Below, one piece after another: positions 1,189-61,014 of a stretch of DNA of 61,014 nt. The stretch is from a virus. Location: IMG/VR virus record IMGVR_UViG_3300043567_000426, positions 1-61,014 of that record. The stretch is one strand, 5' to 3'. Each line of letters starts with the position of its first letter. The first letter of the stretch is position 1. The notes beneath the pieces are model-generated. The model saw only the letters and a program-made list of their open reading frames with translations. It was not told the origin of the DNA and did not search any database. The translations under genes and the position numbers were made by a program.

Positions 1189-1196
1189 GTGAATAA
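1..1196 (+). CDS. Portal protein, C-terminal part (5' end lies at the other end of the window)
   Basis: The frame is open from the first base to TAA at 1194-1196 and continues the gene that begins at 58674. Once the circle is closed the protein is about 782 residues, similar to or slightly longer than P22-type portals. It forms the dodecameric ring at the capsid vertex through which DNA is packaged and ejected. This part holds the conserved core (FVPGMGFYDIGLLHILGN) and, after about residue 640 of the joined protein, a charged helical tail with repeated 'MDAETKRILA' and 'MDAETRRILA' segments, reminiscent of a portal barrel or C-terminal helix. The next gene starts on the last base of the stop codon. 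Call by family resemblance and position downstream of TerL. Confidence 0.93.
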   Translation, partial: FIKYTFVPGMGFYDIGLLHILGNTTNAVTAAWREMLDAGMYANFPGFLMADTGARQNTNIFRVPPGGGALVKTGGMPINQAIMPLPYKEAGAGLMNLVTNIVETGQRVGGTAEVAVGEGRNDAPVGTTIALIDQATKVLNSVHKRMHASQAEEFQLLVRCFREHPESFWKKCRKPSIQWSEAIFMQAVNDCELVPQADPNTASHTQRVMKIMALKQLQQQNPAMYDPKAIDMAALKAMGWSNPEQFMVPAETQQQVPPEVQKAMAELQILKQEADAKTAVAQASVQESQVDGQARLMDAETKRILAQAKLQETQAKSGVEAPRGEDPWRQVDAEAKMMDAETRRILAELKAADLGLNVDKMQMESDHREADRILDSHHRAADRATQLAKNINPVEGE

Positions 1197-3640
1197 TGTC
1201 CCGCATCATTGAGCGCGCTCTATCAATCATTAATGATAATCTGAAGGATCAGACCACAAGCTTTGCTGATCCTGTCAGCATCAAGCCAATGGCGCGTGGC
1301 GGCGATGTTAAAGGCCGTATTTTGCAGGACGAATATCCTACGCATTATCTTCCGCATATCGGTCGCCAAGTGATGGCTGATGGCGGTGCACCTGTTAAGG
1401 GCTTTGAGGGACGCGTATTTAGCCCACCTCCTGTTGAGGAGCCTGTCTCCGCTGAAGGCGTAGAAGCTTATCACGGTTCTCCGCATGAGTTTGAAAATTT
1501 TGATATAAGCAAGATTGGCACGGGCGAAGGCGCGCAAGTTTATGGGCATGGACTATATTTTGCTGGGAATGAAAATGTAGCAAAGTATTATAGAGACTCT
1601 CTTACTGATCCCGACAATGTTCCTTTGCATTTTAAGGGAAAGCCTGTTGATACAGTTTGGAATGATGAAATATCTGATCGATGGAAAGATATTGTAAAAA
1701 AATTACCAAAAGATCATGAGGATGATTTTCAAACAGTTATGGGTAATCTTTCTCAAATTAACAATATGTCTGACCTAAAGCATATTCGCGCTAATTTAGA
1801 TCGCAAACAAAATAATATTCTTGATAAAATTGTTTTACCGGAACTTTCTAAACCAGAGATAGGTTCCGGTCATATGTATGAAGTTCGTATTGATGCGCAT
1901 CCAGAAGAACATTTGCTTGATTGGGATAAGCCACTAAAGGATCAGCATCCTAATGTTCTAGCTGCATTTAACAAATCTGTTATTCCTATTAAAGATGACG
2001 AAGATAAGATGATACATGAGATGTATGGCAATAAGGCCGCTCATGAATATCTTGGGTTATTTGATAGAAGCAAGGGCTCTCAGGCATATAAGACGTTTGC
2101 TGAACATCTTGGTGGACCTGAGAAAGCAAGCGCCGCCTTGGCAGAAGCTGGCATTCGCGGCATCCGTTATCTTGATGCTGGCTCACGCGGTCAAGATGAG
2201 CAAAGCGGCTCGCATAACTACGTCATATTTGATCCGAAGCACATTAAGATCAAGCGCCGTTATGCAGAAGGCGGAGAGATTCCAGAAAAGGATGATGAGG
2301 GAATAGCAGCTTATGCTTTTGGTAATTCTATCCCGCATCTTGATCAAAGAATAAAAAATGAATATCAAGGTTCGCATCAATCTCCAGGGCCAGAAAATGG
2401 CGCGCCTTTATGGAGAATGCATGATTTATATCCAGATGATTTATATTCCTCAAATGGATTTAGATATTACGCAGATTATGGCCTCCCTTACGATAGAGAA
2501 GGGTATAACAGGGCGATATCCTATGTAAATCGGCCAAATAGCTTCGTAACAATTTATAGGGCGGTTCCTAAAGATACTTCTATTAAAAATATAAATCCAA
2601 GTGATTGGGTTACTTTAACAAGAAGCTACGCAAAAGATCATGGAGAATCCACTCTTGGGGGCGAATATAAGATATTAAAAAAAATGGTTAGAGCCAGAGA
2701 TCTTTTTACTCATGCAGATTCTATCCATGAATTTGGATACAATCCACAGCCTCGCGTATCTGATGACGAAATAGTTTCAAGAATGTCCGATGAAGAGGCT
2801 AAAAATAAATTAGAAAGATTGTCTCCACAGGCAAGGACCACCTTAAAGCGAGCTCTTGAAAATAGATTAGCGCCAAAGAAAGCATACGGCGGAGATGTTG
2901 AAGATAACGATATTCAACTTTCTCCTGATGCTGAGGCCATAGATGAAATGCCTGATCAGGCGTTCAATTCTGCCAAGACATCACGCAATCAGATCCCTGC
3001 ATTGTTTAATAGCCCAGCGTTTGAACGCAATAAAGGAAGCCGCAATCTAGATTACGGCGGTGGCGCTTTCGACAAGGGATCAGAATATCTTGCGCAAGAG
3101 CATGGCGTTGATAGCCAAGTTTACGATCCTTTCAATCGATCAAAAGAGCATAATGATTTTGTATTGAAGGGCTTTAAGAAAGAACCCGCAGATACAGCAA
3201 CAGTTGCAAATGTGCTTAATGTGATTGCGGAGCCAGAAGCTCGTATGCATGTCATTAAACAAGTCCATCAACATATTAAGCCAGACGGCAAAGCTTACTT
3301 CACAGTTTATGAAGGCGACGGGAAAGATAAGAACAGCGGCAACTCGCGCATGACGCGCGATGGCTGGCAAGAGAATCGCCCAACGCATTCTTATGTCGAA
3401 GAGATCAAGCAAGTGTTCCCTGATGTGCGTCTTTCCGGCAAGACGATCATCGCCAGTAAAAAGCCAGCGAAAGCTTACGGTGGCTCTATCCCTGGACCAA
3501 AGCTTACGGAAGAAAACGCCGATGACTTTGCGCGTCGTTTGATCGCTTGGACGTTCGCCACGGCGCCACTGTTCCAGCGCGCTGCTGGCGGCTCTGTTAT
3601 TGATGATCCACTTGATGTATTATCCAAACTTCGCCGTTGA
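1196..3640 (+). CDS. Multidomain 'polyvalent' protein: two ART-like domains plus a methyltransferase-like domain
   Basis: This 814-residue protein follows the portal with a one-base overlap. Residues about 90-350 begin 'YHGSPHEFENFDISKIGTG' and contain 'GHGLYFA', matching ADP-ribosyltransferase domains found in phage polyvalent proteins (ART-PolyVal type). Residues about 370-560 hold a second ART-like unit with 'IYRAVPKD' (R455) and 'SIHEFGY' (E512). Residues about 600-760 resemble a class I SAM methyltransferase: 'DYGGGAFDKG' as glycine loop, then 'VYDPFNRS' and 'ATVANVLNVI'. Domains are separated by short linkers ending in GG (YAEGG, KAYGG, RAAGG). It may be carried in the virion and injected, modifying host targets or blocking defences. 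Domain calls rest on motif memory; activity is inferred. Confidence 0.72.
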   Translation: MSRIIERALSIINDNLKDQTTSFADPVSIKPMARGGDVKGRILQDEYPTHYLPHIGRQVMADGGAPVKGFEGRVFSPPPVEEPVSAEGVEAYHGSPHEFENFDISKIGTGEGAQVYGHGLYFAGNENVAKYYRDSLTDPDNVPLHFKGKPVDTVWNDEISDRWKDIVKKLPKDHEDDFQTVMGNLSQINNMSDLKHIRANLDRKQNNILDKIVLPELSKPEIGSGHMYEVRIDAHPEEHLLDWDKPLKDQHPNVLAAFNKSVIPIKDDEDKMIHEMYGNKAAHEYLGLFDRSKGSQAYKTFAEHLGGPEKASAALAEAGIRGIRYLDAGSRGQDEQSGSHNYVIFDPKHIKIKRRYAEGGEIPEKDDEGIAAYAFGNSIPHLDQRIKNEYQGSHQSPGPENGAPLWRMHDLYPDDLYSSNGFRYYADYGLPYDREGYNRAISYVNRPNSFVTIYRAVPKDTSIKNINPSDWVTLTRSYAKDHGESTLGGEYKILKKMVRARDLFTHADSIHEFGYNPQPRVSDDEIVSRMSDEEAKNKLERLSPQARTTLKRALENRLAPKKAYGGDVEDNDIQLSPDAEAIDEMPDQAFNSAKTSRNQIPALFNSPAFERNKGSRNLDYGGGAFDKGSEYLAQEHGVDSQVYDPFNRSKEHNDFVLKGFKKEPADTATVANVLNVIAEPEARMHVIKQVHQHIKPDGKAYFTVYEGDGKDKNSGNSRMTRDGWQENRPTHSYVEEIKQVFPDVRLSGKTIIASKKPAKAYGGSIPGPKLTEENADDFARRLIAWTFATAPLFQRAAGGSVIDDPLDVLSKLRR

Positions 3641-3685: not shown

Positions 3686-4963
3686 ATGTATGAATTAGCT
3701 AAAAGCTCACGCGATAAGATGAAGGCGAAAGCCCGTCGTCTCGCTAACCCAGGTGACTATTACAAAGACCAAGAGGTCTCCAGCGCGGATTGGTCTCCAG
3801 CGCCTCCTCTCAAAACTGAGATGAAGACCGGCGCGCGTCCAATTATGAAGCCATCGTCCAAAGGCACAGGCGAATCATACGCCGCTCGCGATACGAAAAA
3901 GGCTATTGGCGCAGACATGAAGCGCGGCGCTTTTAAAGCCGGCGGCGCTGTAAAAGGCAGCAAGATTCCTTCCGCAGAAGAGACGCTATCCACAAAAGCG
4001 ATCGTTGGTTCTAACCCTATTAAGCCAACGCGCGGCGCAGCTGGCCACTATAAAAAAGGCGGCGCGGTTAAAAAGGCTGATGGCGGCGATGTTGATGCTT
4101 CAAAAGCTCCGCAAAGAACCACAGCTTCGCAAAATGTTTATTCGCCTAAATATAATGAAGATGCTGTAAACAAAGCGATTGCTTCATCAAATAGATCTGG
4201 CCAACGCATTAGCGGCAAAGAATCATCGGCTATTAAAGCTTTGTTGAAGGGCCGCACTGGCCGCGCTGGCGGTGGATCGGCTCTTGAAAAAATGGTCGGC
4301 AAACCAAAAACCGGCAGCGACATGAGCCAAGTCGGAAAGATGGGAACTGCTAACTATACGCAAGAAGAGAAGGGCGCTCTTAATCGCGTATTAAACAAAG
4401 AAGATTCGTTGCCAGAACCAGCTGAAGCAGCAGAGCGTTCCGGAAAATATCAAAACTACAAGAAGGGTGGCCGTGCAGAACGCAAAGCAGGCGGCCGCAC
4501 TCGCGCCAAGGGCAAGACGAATATTAACATCGTTATCGCCGCTGGCCGCAAAGCTGGCCCAGAAGCTCCAGCGTTGGATATGGCCGCTGGCATGCCTTCG
4601 GCTCCTGCAAACATTCCTGTGCCTATGCCAGGCGCTGGCGCTCCGCCTCCAGCTGCAATGCCTATGGGCGGCCCTCCAGGCGCTCCTACGCCAGGCATTC
4701 CAGGTCTGCCTCCAGGCCGGAAGGCTGGCGGCCGCATCACCAAGATTGCAAGCTCATACAAGGATATGCAGGCTGGCTCTGGCAGCGGCGAAGGCCGTTT
4801 GCAGAAAACTGATATCGCCAAGAAGCATCATGACGCGCCTGCGCGTAAGGCTGGCGGCAAGGTCTACAGTTCCTATAAGGACATGGATGCGGGTGCTGGT
4901 TCCGGTCCCGGTCGTCTAGAAAAGACTGAGATCGAAAGGAAACAGAGAGCTCGCGGCAAGTAA
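3686..4963 (+). CDS. Basic, low-complexity GG-repeat protein, probable virion component
   Basis: This 425-residue protein is rich in Lys, Arg, Gly and Ala, with little predicted order. It carries many short units of the form K-x-GG-x-V/I (FKAGGAVKG, YKKGGAVKK, RKAGGRITK, RKAGGKVYS). Its C-terminus contains a duplicated unit, 'SSYKDMQAGSGSGEGRLQKT' followed by 'SSYKDMDAGAGSGPGRLEKT'. A proline/alanine/methionine-rich stretch lies at about residues 295-345. The basic composition and its place between portal and scaffold suggest a DNA-associated internal head or ejected protein. No enzymatic domain is recognised. Confidence 0.75.
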   Translation: MYELAKSSRDKMKAKARRLANPGDYYKDQEVSSADWSPAPPLKTEMKTGARPIMKPSSKGTGESYAARDTKKAIGADMKRGAFKAGGAVKGSKIPSAEETLSTKAIVGSNPIKPTRGAAGHYKKGGAVKKADGGDVDASKAPQRTTASQNVYSPKYNEDAVNKAIASSNRSGQRISGKESSAIKALLKGRTGRAGGGSALEKMVGKPKTGSDMSQVGKMGTANYTQEEKGALNRVLNKEDSLPEPAEAAERSGKYQNYKKGGRAERKAGGRTRAKGKTNINIVIAAGRKAGPEAPALDMAAGMPSAPANIPVPMPGAGAPPPAAMPMGGPPGAPTPGIPGLPPGRKAGGRITKIASSYKDMQAGSGSGEGRLQKTDIAKKHHDAPARKAGGKVYSSYKDMDAGAGSGPGRLEKTEIERKQRARGK

Positions 4964-4980
4964 TTGCAGCGATCGGGGTC

Positions 4981-19969: not shown

Positions 19970-20564
19970 GAACCTTTATCCAATCCCGATTGGCTTTTTC
20001 AAGCATGAAGAGGGCATAACGGAAGCTCAAACAACATTCATGGTTGATCAGGAGCAGCGGCCTAATGACGGCAATACAAGCAGCGTCAATAGATATTTGC
20101 TGAAAGAAAAGAAGCTCGCAAATCTCACTACATTTATTGAGAAATGCGCGCATGAATATCTGATGGCGACGATCTGCCCAAAGAATGATGTTAGGCTTCG
20201 GATTACGCAATCTTGGCTCAATTGGACCAAGCCGGGGCAGTTTCATCATAAGCATGCGCATCCAAACAGCCTGATCTCTGGCTGTTATTATGTCAAAGCC
20301 AACAAGGAAACTGATAAGATATTTTTCTACAAAGATGGATATCAGCAAATTAAGTTTCCGCCTGTCGAGTGGAATAGTTACAATTCGGAGAGTTGGTGGT
20401 ATCCTGTAGGAACCGGAGATTTAGTGTTTTTCCCTTCCAGCCTGACCCATATGGTTCAGCCAGTAGGCGGCGAAGACACAAGGATCAGCCTAGCCTTTAA
20501 CACTTTCCCCGTCGGGCATGTCGGGGACGAAGACGAACTAACCGCACTTTATTTAGGAAAGTAA
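19959..20564 (+). CDS. 2OG-Fe(II) oxygenase-like protein
   Basis: 201 residues from GTG 19959 with AGAGGAGG upstream. 'QSWLNWTKPGQFHHKHAHPN' followed by 'SLISGCYYV', and later 'GDLVFFPSSLTHMVQPVGGE' followed by 'RISLAFNTF', match the phage 2OG-Fe(II) oxygenase family (2OG-FeII_Oxy_5-like). Likely iron ligands are in H99-x-H101 and H164; R175 would bind 2-oxoglutarate. It would hydroxylate a protein or sugar. Its position in the fibre operon suggests a virion protein substrate, possibly the collagen-like fibre. Fold call by motif; substrate inferred. Confidence 0.8.
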   Translation: MIIENLYPIPIGFFKHEEGITEAQTTFMVDQEQRPNDGNTSSVNRYLLKEKKLANLTTFIEKCAHEYLMATICPKNDVRLRITQSWLNWTKPGQFHHKHAHPNSLISGCYYVKANKETDKIFFYKDGYQQIKFPPVEWNSYNSESWWYPVGTGDLVFFPSSLTHMVQPVGGEDTRISLAFNTFPVGHVGDEDELTALYLGK

Positions 20565-44547: not shown

Positions 44548-44729
44548 GCGCCAAAAAAGTGTTTGACAAAAGATTTTTTCCATTTAACCCTATATACACT
44601 GTGACGTATCGATATTGAATTAGGTGCTCTATGCAAAACACAAGTTCATCATCGCATCTTGTCGAGCCTCGCGGCGTCACTGTGTCGCGTAACGCAAGGT
44701 TGCGTGGCGCGTCGTATCTCAATGCCTTA

Positions 44730-44739
44730 CAACGCAACG
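44730..44739. repeat. Isolated CAACGCAACG repeat upstream of the RAMP-like gene
   Basis: CAACGCAACG at 44730-44739, 31 bases before the start of the next gene and in the same orientation as the large array at 45.4-46.6 kb. The preceding bases contain the same GC-rich words (cctcgcggcg, tgtcgcg) seen between array units. Confidence 0.7.
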
Positions 44740-44770: not shown

Positions 44771-45340
44771 ATGAGAATGTGCCGTATTAAAATTAAATCC
44801 ATCACGCCTTATTCAGCATCGCGTCCTGTCGATATTGAGAGAAATAAATCGGAAGGCCATGAGGAATTTGACAAGCGCATTTGGCGCGAGAAAGCGCACT
44901 TCACAAAAGATGAAGATGTTTTTATTCCCGGCGTTTCTTTCAAGCTGGCATTGGATGAAGTTGCATCTATGCTTAATGAAAAGATCAAAGGTAAAGGCAA
45001 TCAGACTTACGGAAAGATTGTTTCCACAGCAACTGTAGCAATGAGTGATCTTTTTATTAGTGTTAAAAAATCAGATCTAAAATCTATCACGATCTTTGCT
45101 AACCTTGATGGCAAGCGCGGCGGAACTGTTCGCGGAAATAGAACTTTCCCTATTGTGCCATCATGGGAAGGATCTGTTGATTTCCAGATCTTTAATGATG
45201 AACTTCCTGCGGAAGTCTTTGAGCGTTATATGACGCAAGCCGGATTGCTTACAGGCGTAGGCCGTGGGCGTCCGGGCATGAAGGCCCCTGCGGGTAATGG
45301 TCGTTTCCAGCCAATATCTTTTGAGTGGTCGGAAATTTAA
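44771..45340 (+). CDS. Conserved phage protein with RAMP-like motifs
   Basis: 189 residues from ATG 44771, with GGAG six bases upstream (an earlier in-frame ATG at 44759 overlaps that site). 'ITPYSASRPVDIERNKSEGH', 'DVFIPGVSFKLALDEVASML', 'KIKGKGNQTYGKI' and 'AGLLTGVGRGRPGMKA' then 'GNGRFQP' define a family widespread in phages. The 'IPG-SFK-AL' and glycine-rich 'GRGRPG...GRF' segments recall RAMP (Cas5/6/7-type) folds, which would imply RNA binding. This is a pattern-based suggestion only. It is flanked on both sides by the CAACGCAACG repeats. Confidence 0.65.
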   Translation: MRMCRIKIKSITPYSASRPVDIERNKSEGHEEFDKRIWREKAHFTKDEDVFIPGVSFKLALDEVASMLNEKIKGKGNQTYGKIVSTATVAMSDLFISVKKSDLKSITIFANLDGKRGGTVRGNRTFPIVPSWEGSVDFQIFNDELPAEVFERYMTQAGLLTGVGRGRPGMKAPAGNGRFQPISFEWSEI

Positions 45341-45386
45341 TATTCGCACCATGACGTTTCGCCACGCGGCGCGACTCTTCTATCTG

Positions 45387-45603
45387 CAACGCAACGATAG
45401 ACAGGAGTTAACATCAAAAATGCTAGAGATCTATTTAAAAAATAGAAAGGTTTAACATCGCCTCGAAACTAATTGCGACGAAGCTAACCGTGGCGACACG
45501 CTGCGCAATACAACGCAACGGTTCATTAGACAATTTATTGTCGCTCTGTGCCGACCCGCGTCGTTACGCATCTTGACGAGTCGCGTAGCAACTCAACGCA
45601 ACA
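45387..45603. repeat. CAACGCAACG repeat array, first block
   Basis: Copies at 45387-45396, 45511-45520 and 45594-45603 (last base variant), spaced 124 and 83 bases. The 45511 copy has the extended core CAACGCAACGGTTCATTA followed three bases on by AATTTATT. The gap 45341-45622 holds no convincing gene; an 11-codon ORF after AGGAG at about 45421 is too short to call. The last copy ends 19 bases before the start of the next gene. Confidence 0.8.
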
Positions 45604-45622
45604 AATCACCAAGGAGAGTAAA

Positions 45623-46114
45623 ATGCCTAGAAGGCCAATGTTTAAGCAATCAGAAGAGACAATAAAAATTATTGCTCTCTTTAAGGAAATGCCGATTGGT
45701 AAGGAAATATCGTATCAAGACGCATCAGCAATCGTAGGGTTTAAGATAACGTCAACGCTTCCAGCATATCAGACAGCAAAGAAAGCTGCGGAGCGGGATC
45801 ATAACGTCGTTGTAGAAAGCATCAGAAGCTTTGGCTTTGTGCGCATTGACGGCACTGGCATGGTCGATCGCGCAAGCCGATTCTTTAAGAAAGTTCGCAA
45901 GGGCTCGCGCCGGGAGGCCCATGTGCAGGAAATCGCCATAACCACAAATCTCACGCGCGGTCAAATGATAACCGCGACTGAGCAGCTATCGCGCTTACGA
46001 ATATTAGAGACGACCGCATCAAGAGTTAAGTCTAGTAAAAACAAAGACGATGATGCGCTAAATAATTTTGTGTTTGACAATAGAGAAGCTTTGAAGGCTC
46101 TATTGACGAAATAA
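45623..46114 (+). CDS. Conserved phage protein, possibly DNA-binding
   Basis: 163 residues from ATG 45623 with AAGGAGAG upstream. 'EMPIGKEISYQDASAIVGFK' and 'AAERDHNVVVESIRSFGFVR' followed by 'IDGTGMVDRASRFFKKVRKG' belong to a phage family of unknown function, with a basic central region and possible winged-helix character. It sits between two blocks of the repeat array and is the obvious candidate partner for those repeats, but this is inference. Confidence 0.6.
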   Translation: MPRRPMFKQSEETIKIIALFKEMPIGKEISYQDASAIVGFKITSTLPAYQTAKKAAERDHNVVVESIRSFGFVRIDGTGMVDRASRFFKKVRKGSRREAHVQEIAITTNLTRGQMITATEQLSRLRILETTASRVKSSKNKDDDALNNFVFDNREALKALLTK

Positions 46115-46193
46115 TGCGGGACGCTGCTCGACGCTTTGCCGCGCGGCGCTTCTTGGCGACTTGTCGCTAATCGTAACGCCCGATTCTGCAACT

Positions 46194-46595
46194 CAACGCA
46201 ACGGTTCATTAGATGATTTACTACCGCAACGCTACACGCCTAGTCTTCCTGCAACGCTCTGCTCCGCATCTTAGCGCGCCTCAGTGTCACGCAACACAAC
46301 GCAACGGTTTATTTGTCAATTTACCCTCGCGGCTCATCGCACTACCCCTCAACGCAACGCAGGGTGGCGCTCTGCAACTCAACGCAACGGTTCATTATGC
46401 AATTTATTCACGCCGCTAATCGCATTGTGCCTCAACGCACTGCGTCGTGTCGCCGTGCAACTCAACGCAACGGTTCATTATGAAATTTATCTCCGTCACG
46501 CTTGGCTCCTCGCCGTATTGCATCGTTTCTCAGCATGGCGCACAGTCACGCACAGCACGGCTCCTTGACGCTACGCCCAGCAACTCAACGCAACG
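46194..46595. repeat. CAACGCAACG repeat array, main block
   Basis: Copies start at 46194, 46297, 46350, 46380, 46463 and 46586. Leaving out the solitary 46350 copy, the spacings are 103, 83, 83 and 123 bases. Four copies extend as CAACGCAACGGTT-Y-ATT followed by an AATTTAT/ATTTAC element. Sequences between copies are GC-rich and not conserved. The gap 46115-46604 (490 bases) contains no supported gene. All copies have the same orientation, and the last ends 9 bases before the RuvC-type gene. Confidence 0.85.
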
Positions 46596-46604
46596 GAATA
46601 TTAA

Positions 46605-47060
46605 ATGACTGAAGCATGCATCATGGGAATAGATCCCGGCGTCTCTGGCGCCGTGGCATTTTATTTTCCAGATTACCCTAATAGAATTTCGGTATATGAT
46701 GCGCCATCGGTAGGGAAAGAAATTAATGCTCCAGCACTTGCGCAGCTTATTAAACAATATAGCCCAACAATTTGTTATATCGAATCAGTCAACGCAATGC
46801 CAAAGCAAGGCGTCACAAGCAGCTTCAACTTCGGACAAGCATATGGCTGCGTTCGAGGAGTGGTTGCAGCGTGTGGAGTTCCGACTGTTTTGGTAAGCCC
46901 ACGAAAGTGGAAAAGCTTTTTTGCTTTGGATTCGGATAAAGAAAAATCCAGAAGACTAGCAATAATGAAATGGCCTGATGGCGGTCATTTTAACAGAAAG
47001 AAAGATGACGGCCGCGCGGAAGCGGCCTTGATTGCTTTATATGGGAGCAAACAGTTATGA
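46605..47060 (+). CDS. RuvC-like Holliday-junction resolvase
   Basis: 151 residues. 'IMGIDPGVSGAVAFYF' (D10), 'ICYIESVNAMP' (E60) and 'KKDDGRAEAALIALYG' (D134/D135) give the acidic active site of phage RuvC-type nucleases. It would resolve branched replication intermediates before packaging. Its ATG follows immediately after the repeat array with no strong ribosome-binding site, which is unusual. It overlaps the next gene by 4 bases. Confidence 0.88.
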   Translation: MTEACIMGIDPGVSGAVAFYFPDYPNRISVYDAPSVGKEINAPALAQLIKQYSPTICYIESVNAMPKQGVTSSFNFGQAYGCVRGVVAACGVPTVLVSPRKWKSFFALDSDKEKSRRLAIMKWPDGGHFNRKKDDGRAEAALIALYGSKQL

Positions 47061-58673: not shown

Positions 58674-61014
58674 ATGCCGATGACGCCGGGCTTGCCCTAC
58701 AATATTCGTCAAGAGCAGCAAGCACCGGCAGGGCTTGGCGCCGCTGAAGATCTGATGGTTGAGATTGAAGAGGGGCCGGACAAGCCAAAGACTGATGAGA
58801 GCGGCAAGATCTTAACGATTGAGCATGATGACGGCTCCATCACGGTATCGCTTGATGGCCGTTCGCTTGATGGCGATTCAGATGCCGCTCGCGCAGAAGA
58901 GTGGTTTGGCAATCTCGTTGAAGACATAGACCAAGCAACGCTTGGCCGCATTGCAGAAGATCTGCTTCGCGGCGTTCGCGATGACTTAGATAGCAGGCAG
59001 GATTGGATTGAAGACCGCGCCCAAGGCATGAAGCTTTTGGGCTTGAAGGTTGAGATACCAGGTTTGCAGGGCGCCGTTGACGGTGCGCCTGTTGAAGGCA
59101 TGAGCCGCGTTCGCCATCCATTGCTACTTGAAGCGGTGCTCCGCTTCCAAGCCAATGCGCGCAGCGAGTTGCTTCCAACTGACGGTCCTGTGAAGGTTCG
59201 CGATGATGCGGATAAAGATTCGCCAGAGCAGCAACAGCTTGCTGATGCGTTGGAGAACGATCTTAATCAGTATCTGACGGCGGTAGCCAAAGAATATTAT
59301 CCTGATACTGACCGCATGCTTTTCATGCTTGGCTTTGGCGGCACGGCCTTCAAAAAAGTTTACTTCTGCCCATTGCGCGGCAGACCTGTAAGCGAGACGG
59401 TCGATGCTGATGACTTGATCGTTAACAATGCGGCGACGACGCTAGACGACGCAAAGCGCATAACGCATCGCGTCTTCATGCGCCCGTCAACTGTGCGCAG
59501 ATTGCAGATCCTTGGCGTTTATCGCGACATTGATCTGACAACGCCAAATCAATATCAGGCCGATGAGGTGCAACGCCAGAAGGCAGACGTTCAAGGTATC
59601 TCGATTGATTCGATGAACCCGGACGATCGCGACCGGGAGATCTATGAGATTTATTGTGAGCTCGACATACCGGGCTTCGAGCACAAATATAAGGGGAAAG
59701 AAACTGGCCTCGAAATTCCGTATCGCGTAACGATCGATGTGAGCTCGCGAGAGATCCTCTCAATAGTGAGGAACTACGATGAGCCAACGGGAGAAGAAGG
59801 CGACGAACTGCCTGAGTCCAGAAACAATTTTATCAAATATACTTTTGTTCCTGGTATGGGTTTTTACGATATCGGTTTACTTCATATTTTGGGTAATACC
59901 ACAAACGCGGTTACTGCCGCTTGGCGCGAGATGCTCGATGCCGGCATGTATGCGAACTTCCCCGGCTTCCTTATGGCGGATACTGGCGCGCGTCAGAATA
60001 CGAATATATTCCGCGTTCCGCCGGGCGGTGGGGCGCTAGTTAAAACGGGCGGCATGCCAATCAATCAGGCCATTATGCCCTTGCCTTACAAAGAGGCTGG
60101 CGCAGGCTTGATGAACCTTGTCACCAATATTGTTGAGACGGGCCAGCGCGTTGGCGGCACGGCTGAAGTTGCTGTTGGCGAAGGGCGCAATGATGCGCCT
60201 GTCGGAACAACGATTGCGTTGATTGATCAGGCGACGAAGGTTCTCAACTCAGTTCACAAGCGCATGCATGCTTCGCAGGCAGAAGAGTTCCAGTTGCTTG
60301 TGCGTTGCTTTCGCGAACACCCAGATAGCTTCTGGAAGAAATGCCGCAAGCCATCAATTCAATGGAGCGAGGCGATCTTCATGCAAGCAGTCAATGACTG
60401 CGAGCTTGTTCCGCAAGCAGACCCAAACACCGCAAGCCATACGCAGCGCGTCATGAAGATCATGGCGTTGAAGCAATTGCAGCAACAAAACCCAGCCATG
60501 TATGATCCAAAGGCGATCGACATGGCGGCATTGAAGGCGATGGGCTGGAGCAACCCAGAACAGTTTATGGTTCCGGCTGAGACGCAGCAACAAGTCCCGC
60601 CGGAAGTCCAGAAGGCGATGGCGGAGCTTCAGATCTTGAAGCAGGAGGCAGACGCCAAGACGGCGGTTGCCCAGGCTTCGGTCCAGGAGTCGCAAGTCGA
60701 TGGCCAAGCGCGCCTGATGGACGCAGAGACCAAGCGCATCCTTGCGCAGGCGAAGCTGCAAGAGACGCAAGCCAAAAGCGGCGTAGAAGCGCCACGCGGC
60801 GAAGACCCTTGGCGCCAAGTAGACGCAGAAGCACAGATGATGGACGCAGAGACGCGCCGCATACTTGCAGAGTTAAAGGCTGCTGATCTTGGTCTTAACG
60901 TAGATAAGATGCAGATGGAATCAGATCATCGCGAAGCTGATCGCATTCTTGATTCGCATCATCGCGCTGCTGATCGTGCAACGCAGTTGGCTAAAAACAT
61001 TAATCCTGTTGAGG
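58674..61014 (+). CDS. Portal protein, N-terminal 780 codons (runs off the window)
   Basis: Starts 'MPMTPGLPYNIRQEQQAPAG' with AAGGAT upstream, and stays open to the last base. N-terminal features 'RSLDGDSDAARAEEWFGNLV', 'SRQDWIEDRAQGMKLLGLKV' and 'DTDRMLFMLGFGGTAFKKVY' are typical of P22-like portals (wing and stem regions). The last 1,188 bases duplicate the start of the window, where the stop codon lies at 1194-1196. Full length is about 782 residues. Confidence 0.95.
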   Translation, partial: MPMTPGLPYNIRQEQQAPAGLGAAEDLMVEIEEGPDKPKTDESGKILTIEHDDGSITVSLDGRSLDGDSDAARAEEWFGNLVEDIDQATLGRIAEDLLRGVRDDLDSRQDWIEDRAQGMKLLGLKVEIPGLQGAVDGAPVEGMSRVRHPLLLEAVLRFQANARSELLPTDGPVKVRDDADKDSPEQQQLADALENDLNQYLTAVAKEYYPDTDRMLFMLGFGGTAFKKVYFCPLRGRPVSETVDADDLIVNNAATTLDDAKRITHRVFMRPSTVRRLQILGVYRDIDLTTPNQYQADEVQRQKADVQGISIDSMNPDDRDREIYEIYCELDIPGFEHKYKGKETGLEIPYRVTIDVSSREILSIVRNYDEPTGEEGDELPESRNNFIKYTFVPGMGFYDIGLLHILGNTTNAVTAAWREMLDAGMYANFPGFLMADTGARQNTNIFRVPPGGGALVKTGGMPINQAIMPLPYKEAGAGLMNLVTNIVETGQRVGGTAEVAVGEGRNDAPVGTTIALIDQATKVLNSVHKRMHASQAEEFQLLVRCFREHPDSFWKKCRKPSIQWSEAIFMQAVNDCELVPQADPNTASHTQRVMKIMALKQLQQQNPAMYDPKAIDMAALKAMGWSNPEQFMVPAETQQQVPPEVQKAMAELQILKQEADAKTAVAQASVQESQVDGQARLMDAETKRILAQAKLQETQAKSGVEAPRGEDPWRQVDAEAQMMDAETRRILAELKAADLGLNVDKMQMESDHREADRILDSHHRAADRATQLAKNINPVE
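59827..61014. repeat. Right copy of the 1,188-bp terminal direct repeat
   Basis: Partner of 1-1188 with 37 substitutions and no indels. By reading the codons I find only two amino-acid changes (Glu to Asp in 'HPESFW' and Lys to Gln in 'EAKMMD'). Both copies therefore look selected as functional portal sequence. Confidence 0.97.

Follow-up and report, generated by a model that had tools for sequence, protein, structure and literature searches.

A candidate VIPR guide-RNA array with a CGC/NN pentamer code in a phage genome

Genes and repeat tracts of the locus

The present analysis concerns an array of direct repeats and its neighbouring genes in the IMG/VR virus record IMGVR_UViG_3300043567_000426 (positions 1 to 61,014; this entire stretch of 61,014 nucleotides (nt) is referred to as the window), and the probable identity of this array as part of a phage VIPR system. 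Three genes on the + strand frame the array. The vipr gene (44771..45340) encodes a protein of 189 amino acids (aa) predicted to be RAMP/Cas7-like, with the G-loop GVGRGRP...NGRF. The vap-like gene (45623..46114) encodes 163 aa, predicted to form a winged helix and a long helix and to bind DNA. Both are also named below by their start positions. A RuvC-like Holliday junction resolvase gene (46605..47060; phrog_1770, E 2.9e-32) follows and is probably not part of the system. The locus is situated at a junction where leftward genes (39-44.6 kb) meet rightward genes, and GC skew changes sign there.

Nine exact copies of CAACGCAACG were observed on the + strand and none on the - strand, compared with 0.16 expected from shuffles. 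With the variant CAACGCAACA (45594) included, CAACGCAAC occurs ten times, always on the + strand, starting at 44730, 45387, 45511, 45594, 46194, 46297, 46350, 46380, 46463, and 46586, and the longer core CAACGCAACGGTTCATTA is present around the copies. Thus, the ten same-strand copies and the extended core of the initial annotation of this DNA were recovered, with the first copy outside the interval given there (45387-46595), as was the placement of the copies in the gaps around the open reading frames (ORFs) at 44771, 45623, and 46605. The intervals between CAACGCAAC copies were also as described, namely 83 (three times), 103, 123, and 124. The copy at 46350 lies within a tract, in frame with its pentamers (53+30 = 83), and the 124 interval spans the remnant of a small ORF (45397..45454, + strand). 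This remnant was recognised by alignment to an intact 46-aa ORF in two sister phages (L010 and L011), in which the corresponding interval is 231.

When the sequence is counted back in fives from each CAACGCAACG, nine tracts, all on the + strand, parse in one frame as (CGC NN)n pentamers, and the repeat copies are their constant 3' ends, which every tract carries. Just upstream of vipr, T1 (44653..44739) contains 15 variable pentamers and the constant end TACAACGCAACG. T2 (45345..45396), directly 3' of the vipr stop codon, contains eight variable pentamers and the constant end. Beyond the ORF remnant, T3 (45456..45520; nine variable pentamers and an AA AA AA end) and T4 (45542..45603; nine variable pentamers and the constant end, upstream of the vap-like gene) are separated by an AT-rich core of 21 nt (45521..45541). 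Directly after the vap stop codon, T5 (46117..46203; 14 variable pentamers and the constant end) opens a tandem series in which an AT-rich core (GTTCATTAGATGATTTACTAC at 46204..46224, then 46307..46327, 46390..46410, and 46473..46493, all + strand) precedes each following tract: T6 (46225..46306; 16 pentamers, identical in L010/L011), T7 (46328..46389; 12 pentamers, with the extra in-frame CAACGCAACG at 46350), T8 (46411..46472; 12 pentamers), and T9 (46494..46595; 20 pentamers), which stops 9 nt short of the RuvC-like start codon. With the constant pentamers counted, the tracts hold 10 to 20 pentamers each.

The pentamer code was scored after removal of the constant ends. In the anchored frame, 215 of 306 positions matched CGC, compared with 100±9 in dinucleotide shuffles (maximum 132 in 2000; z 12.7) and 18-125 in the other frames. 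The fixed positions of the window were C in 76%, G in 72%, and C or T in 86% of cases, and the free NN positions were near random (entropies 1.96 and 1.99 bits). Over the wider family (149 tracts, 2193 pentamers), the consensus was C.91, G.77, C.94, N, N, with NN near uniform. A periodicity check, which had been recommended in the initial annotation, gave autocorrelation maxima for the region at 5, 10, and 15. The sequence between the copies, previously described as GC-rich and unique, is therefore not unstructured; it represents a degenerate CGCNN pentanucleotide repeat in frame with the copies.

The spacing follows the same code. Tandem units are spaced by 5n+23, such that 83, 103, and 123 correspond to 12, 16, and 20 pentamers plus CG and the 21-nt AT-rich core. 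It had been proposed that these spacings are close to 8, 10, and 12 helical turns and place the sites on one face of the DNA. The spacings of L010/L011 also include 93 and 98, neither of which makes up a whole number of helical turns, and together with the mod-5 rule these spacings exclude helical phasing. A protein-coding repeat was rejected, as 83 cannot be divided by 3 and the tracts show no conservation as protein. The window and 18 related loci gave no Rfam match, hammerhead included. An exact 18-mer match in another contig (L078) is a lone copy in an unrelated phage region and was set aside as chance or unrelated.

The Vipr and vap-like proteins and their relatives

VIPR, a possible ancestor of CRISPR, was described in April 2026 as a system with a GGY/NN code (PMC13142463). 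It comprises the Vipr protein, an accessory gene, and vrRNAs of approximately 100 nt, in which 9-16 YNNGG pentamers are followed by a structured 3' tail, and the vap genes of types II, VI, and VII are DNA-binding (PMC13142463). The NN pairs of the guides bind double-stranded DNA with one base skipped and repress transcription, and the targets are competing phages (PMC13142463). The type II exemplar is Escherichia phage SUSP1 (KT454805; PDB 36pp) (PMC13142463). The VIPR types, seven in number, are all given as GGY/NN "or a related consensus" (fig. S17, PMC13142463), and CGC/NN may be among these.

The product of gene 44771 matches phrog_4652 (E 1.9e-5), a family also matched by SUSP1 Vipr (E 2.1e-98). 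A 21-sequence profile of gene 44771 aligned with SUSP1 Vipr over 170 columns (hhalign E 1.1e-9), and a PDB sequence search of this profile returned a sole chain, 36pp, "SUSP1 Vipr protein" (E 1e-8). On these profile comparisons, gene 44771 is homologous to SUSP1 Vipr. The structure model (pLDDT 88.5) predicts a Cas7/RAMP fold, and Cas7-family CRISPR subunits or Cas7-11 accounted for all 50 fold matches listed. Moreover, vipr is 99-100% identical, with the reading frame intact, in three other contigs. Distant relatives were observed as well. A hypothetical protein of the P. aeruginosa phage vB_Pae_LESphi2 (OQ594955.1 4903-5334) is a Vipr-like homolog with 25.6% identity (E 7e-7). A further homolog (L047:2163-2732; 25% identity, E 1e-8) lies without CAACGCAAC repeats on a contig retrieved via its RuvC, and another, with 43% identity, lies in a metagenome-assembled genome labelled Euryarchaeota (L208, JAKPCO010000016.1), which is probably viral or misbinned.

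The model of the gene 45623 product (pLDDT 82) shows a winged helix with a long helix after it. Its nearest folds are winged-helix regulators, with no match below E 0.001. The similarity to SUSP1 vap1 is collinear and weak (E 0.013, probability 3%), and homology to this gene is only suggested by the alignment. In addition, homologs of gene 45623 are linked to homologs of gene 44771 in other phages. From its model and position, gene 45623 is predicted to encode a winged-helix, vap-like, DNA-binding protein.

The array varies by whole units between close relatives. In L010/L011, the vipr protein is 99% identical to that of the window, extra units are observed after gene 45623, and T7/T8 is shorter by one whole 83-nt unit. 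A further relative, L015, carries a RuvC that is 87% identical to that of the window and lacks gene 44771, gene 45623, and the repeats; the array thus travels with the two genes. In their place, L015 has a glycosyltransferase-like gene (L015:2204-2947), a clean accessory-module swap. The initial annotation had stated that its reading would be refuted if relatives with the same neighbours lacked the repeats. This objection does not apply, as the relative without repeats also lacks both genes, and other phages with both homologs have arrays.

The wider family was searched in phage contigs using a pattern of two copies 55-85 bases apart, with coding and simple-repeat chance matches set aside. Among the matches listed, many phage contigs contain clean CGCNN arrays ending in CGCAACGCAACG around homologs of genes 44771 and 45623; most phage loci with arrays carry a homolog of gene 44771, and most of those also carry a homolog of gene 45623. 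A scan of bacterial genomes revealed eight loci, mostly in Alphaproteobacteria (Paracoccus, Devosia, Rhizobium, Roseomonas, Rhodobacteraceae, and Hyphomicrobiales), most of them with arrays. The terminase of the window is closest to that of a spring-water phage, with alphaproteobacterial phages among the next best matches, and the host is probably alphaproteobacterial.

Decoded targets and the weighing of explanations

The guides were decoded using the published 1-nt-skip rule, in which the NN pairs are read as NN-x-NN-x. In a locus of Paracoccus litorisediminis (L202), the guide at 4895-4969 decodes to GAnCCnCTnATnGAnCGnGTnACnCTnGT. Among 397 genomes of the family, this guide gave four perfect matches and three matches with one mismatch, compared with none for the reversed control and, by our estimate, about 0.003 perfect matches expected. 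All seven matches fall at DPLIERVTLVKPVRVGFTT within genes for the phage terminase large subunit, which were assigned from the sequence by neighbour and motifs. The matches are in codon frame, and the base skipped is the wobble base.

Two guides of the window itself decode to integrase motifs. The antisense decode of T1 is (SR)(FL)(IM)TP(HQ)(FL)(FL)R(HQ)TAAT(IM), the tyrosine-recombinase (tyrosine-integrase catalytic) box. The sense decode of T5 is (DE)(CW)(DE)(FL)RG(FL)GLR(IM)(KN)PS, with the motif D-x-E-L-R-G-F-G-L-R-I-K-P-S, the arm-domain motif of phage integrases. Pfam and tblastn searches with the decoded 15-mers returned nothing, such strings being shorter than the filters allow. In 289 alphaproteobacterial genomes, five matches were observed for T5 (approximately 0.35 expected) and one for T1 (approximately 0.03 expected). 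In all six cases, Pfam identified the matched gene as a tyrosine integrase, and the match coincides with the decoded motif and keeps the codon frame. The spelling of conserved tyrosine-integrase motifs by T1 and T5 suggests that the likely use of these guides is the silencing of integrases of competing temperate phages. An extra tract of a sister phage (L010:7641-7710) reads in antisense as V(SR)G(KN)PSG(SR)S(KN)G, which bears some likeness to SGNPxGRPKG, a motif of DUF5681 proteins. In the fetched loci, no skip rule gave an excess of target matches, and none would be expected in only 1.56 Mb; the best 1-skip matches of the window to itself were near chance level.

Taken together, the homology to Vipr, the Cas7/RAMP fold, and the vap-like neighbour identify the locus as a VIPR system, and we consider it very probable that the array is the guide-RNA part of such a system, with guides that silence competing temperate phages. 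We infer the following course of transcription, processing, RNA binding, DNA binding, and silencing. The region would be transcribed one way as a single precursor, and cuts near the AT-rich cores would release the guide RNAs (vrRNAs). As a RAMP protein of one domain, Vipr would coat each of these guides, gripping the fixed CGC positions and leaving the NN pairs exposed for recognition. These pairs would then read double-stranded DNA as NN-x-NN-x, with the skipped base usually at the codon wobble, and the bound complex would block transcription of the target. The initial annotation had named an iteron-type origin, a partition or packaging site, or a set of small RNAs. Only the last is supported, in the form of guide-RNA tracts, by the pentamer code, the Vipr homology, and the decoded targets; neither a partition site nor a packaging site gained support.

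Several observations weigh against this explanation. The seven terminase matches are homologous and are therefore counted as one event, and a second Paracoccus guide of the same locus ("d") had no match within two mismatches in the 397 genomes. The integrase motifs of T1 and T5 were recognised ahead of the searches, each integrase match has three mismatches, and no exact targets of T9, T1, or T5 were found in IMG/VR; thus, the integrase reading stays at the level of motifs. In the 289 genomes, T9 gave one match with three mismatches in a repetitive, surface-protein-like ORF, which is taken as background. The fixed letters of the window are degenerate, with 70% CGC match compared with approximately 87% over the family, and are closer to C-K-Y, so that some window tracts may be decaying. 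In addition, the fixed letters are CGC here and GGY in VIPR, with letters 2 and 3 in agreement and the first different. Finally, folding in the window is weak (mean -2.9 kcal/mol per 40 nt downstream) and the constant end CAACGCAACG looks unstructured, whereas the published tail is structured.

The degeneracy of the code might also indicate a decayed VIPR system, in which the anatomy is inherited and the window tracts have drifted and no longer guide. The broken small ORF between the tracts and the failure to find exact targets in IMG/VR are consistent with decay. However, the conserved and intact vipr in three other contigs argues against it, as do the NN strings of T1 and T5, which still spell integrase motifs. 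Moreover, natural SUSP1 vrRNAs are likewise imperfect at fixed positions; as read here, the SUSP1 array consists of GGT-NN pentamers on the same strand as the genes, and the fixed letters of some are imperfect. Decay is considered unlikely, with a small chance of being correct. Regulatory cassettes ahead of each gene, such as operators, promoters, or leaders, are known from the PeSL elements of T4-type phages and the start-associated sequences of mycobacteriophages, and copies in the window do end 9-35 nt upstream of the start codons of 44771, 45623, and 46605. However, no gene separates the five consecutive tracts at 46117-46595, the NN positions show no conservation and are random, and a promoter or operator leaves the Cas7-fold partner and the decoded phage motifs unexplained, which makes cassettes very improbable.

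The setting of the array might instead suggest an iteron-type replication origin, in which an initiator (45623 or a nearby primase) binds the repeats and the AT-rich cores unwind. The array lies at the switch of gene direction and GC skew, recombination and replication genes are nearby, and the 45623 protein is predicted to be a winged-helix protein. However, the switch of GC skew is expected from gene direction alone, the 5n+23 spacings change by whole pentamers, and a 5-nt code with variable NN between copies is foreign to iterons. The arrays also track vipr and vap in phages and bacterial genomes and are absent in L015, in which the RuvC is kept. An origin is regarded as highly improbable. 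Direct repeats with unique stretches between them, the Cas7 fold, and the gain and loss of units between strains could likewise describe a class 1 CRISPR-like array, with contiguous spacers of 45-90 nt and a Cas7-like protein. Against this, the stretches are themselves (CGCNN)n and therefore no copies of contiguous foreign DNA, the units differ from one another by pentamers, the neighbouring genes scanned included no other cas-type protein, and the Paracoccus guide gives 1-skip instead of contiguous matches. Such an array appears exceedingly improbable.

Elsewhere in the window, positions 1-127 recur exactly at 59827-59953, approximately 1.06 kb before the end. Because 127 is a common assembler k-mer length, this recurrence may be no biological repeat but the mark of a loop in the assembly, or of a circular genome whose end varies. 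A large protein (1196-3634) shows similarity to an endolysin family and to phrog_2579 (E 3e-30), a family of phage ParB C-terminal domains, and a 2OG-Fe(II) oxygenase (20040-20558; phrog_81, E 6e-41) is encoded among the structural genes.

Comparison with known systems

Herein, we tentatively propose that phages of Alphaproteobacteria carry a separate VIPR code class, CGC/NN, with tracts in every operon gap and an unstructured guide end, and that a phage with no integrase seen silences the integrases and terminases of its temperate rivals; this proposal is plausible, somewhat short of probable. If it is true, the fixed trinucleotide of the code is evolvable and the NN/1-skip reading is conserved. 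The array and its relatives, which were found without recourse to the data sets of PMC13142463, keep the five-letter period with another fixed trinucleotide, and their decoded targets point to the same one-base skip. Thus, the generality of the code becomes directly testable, and the terminase and the integrase are added as natural targets. A simple sequence signature for the search for further systems is provided by CGCNN tracts with CAACGCAACG at their end, next to a phrog_4652-like gene.

Compared with iteron origins, the array shares short same-strand direct repeats beside replication genes and AT-rich stretches, and differs in its five-nt code with variable letters, its whole-pentamer spacing, and its linkage to vipr and vap instead of an initiator. 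Class 1 CRISPR-Cas systems (Cas7, types III and VII) share the predicted fold, an RRM core with a G-loop, and the expected coating of RNA. Unlike these systems, the locus has no crRNA-type repeat/spacer array, a single RAMP protein, and guides in the form of pentamer tracts, and no further cas gene was seen among the neighbouring genes scanned.

The closest comparison is with VIPR. Apart from the fixed letters and the guide end, the window differs from the published system in tracts of up to 20 pentamers compared with 9-16, in tracts that fill every operon gap and reach up to start codons, in the 21-nt AT-rich core between tandem tracts, and in hosts that are alphaproteobacterial where known. 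Strong hairpins follow the tracts in four related loci, L193, L204, L205, and L209 (e.g. ACTGGCTC..GAGCCAGT in L209); these are possibly a structured vrRNA tail or terminators, and they are closer to the published tail. As in SUSP1, a small single RAMP protein, homologous to SUSP1 Vipr, adjoins a small, predicted DNA-binding accessory gene, and noncoding pentamers of three fixed and two free letters lie on either side of the genes, on the same strand as these and in a corresponding register. Moreover, the guides decode to phage genes by a 1-nt skip, with the skip at the wobble position, in the Paracoccus guide and, at the level of motifs, in the window.
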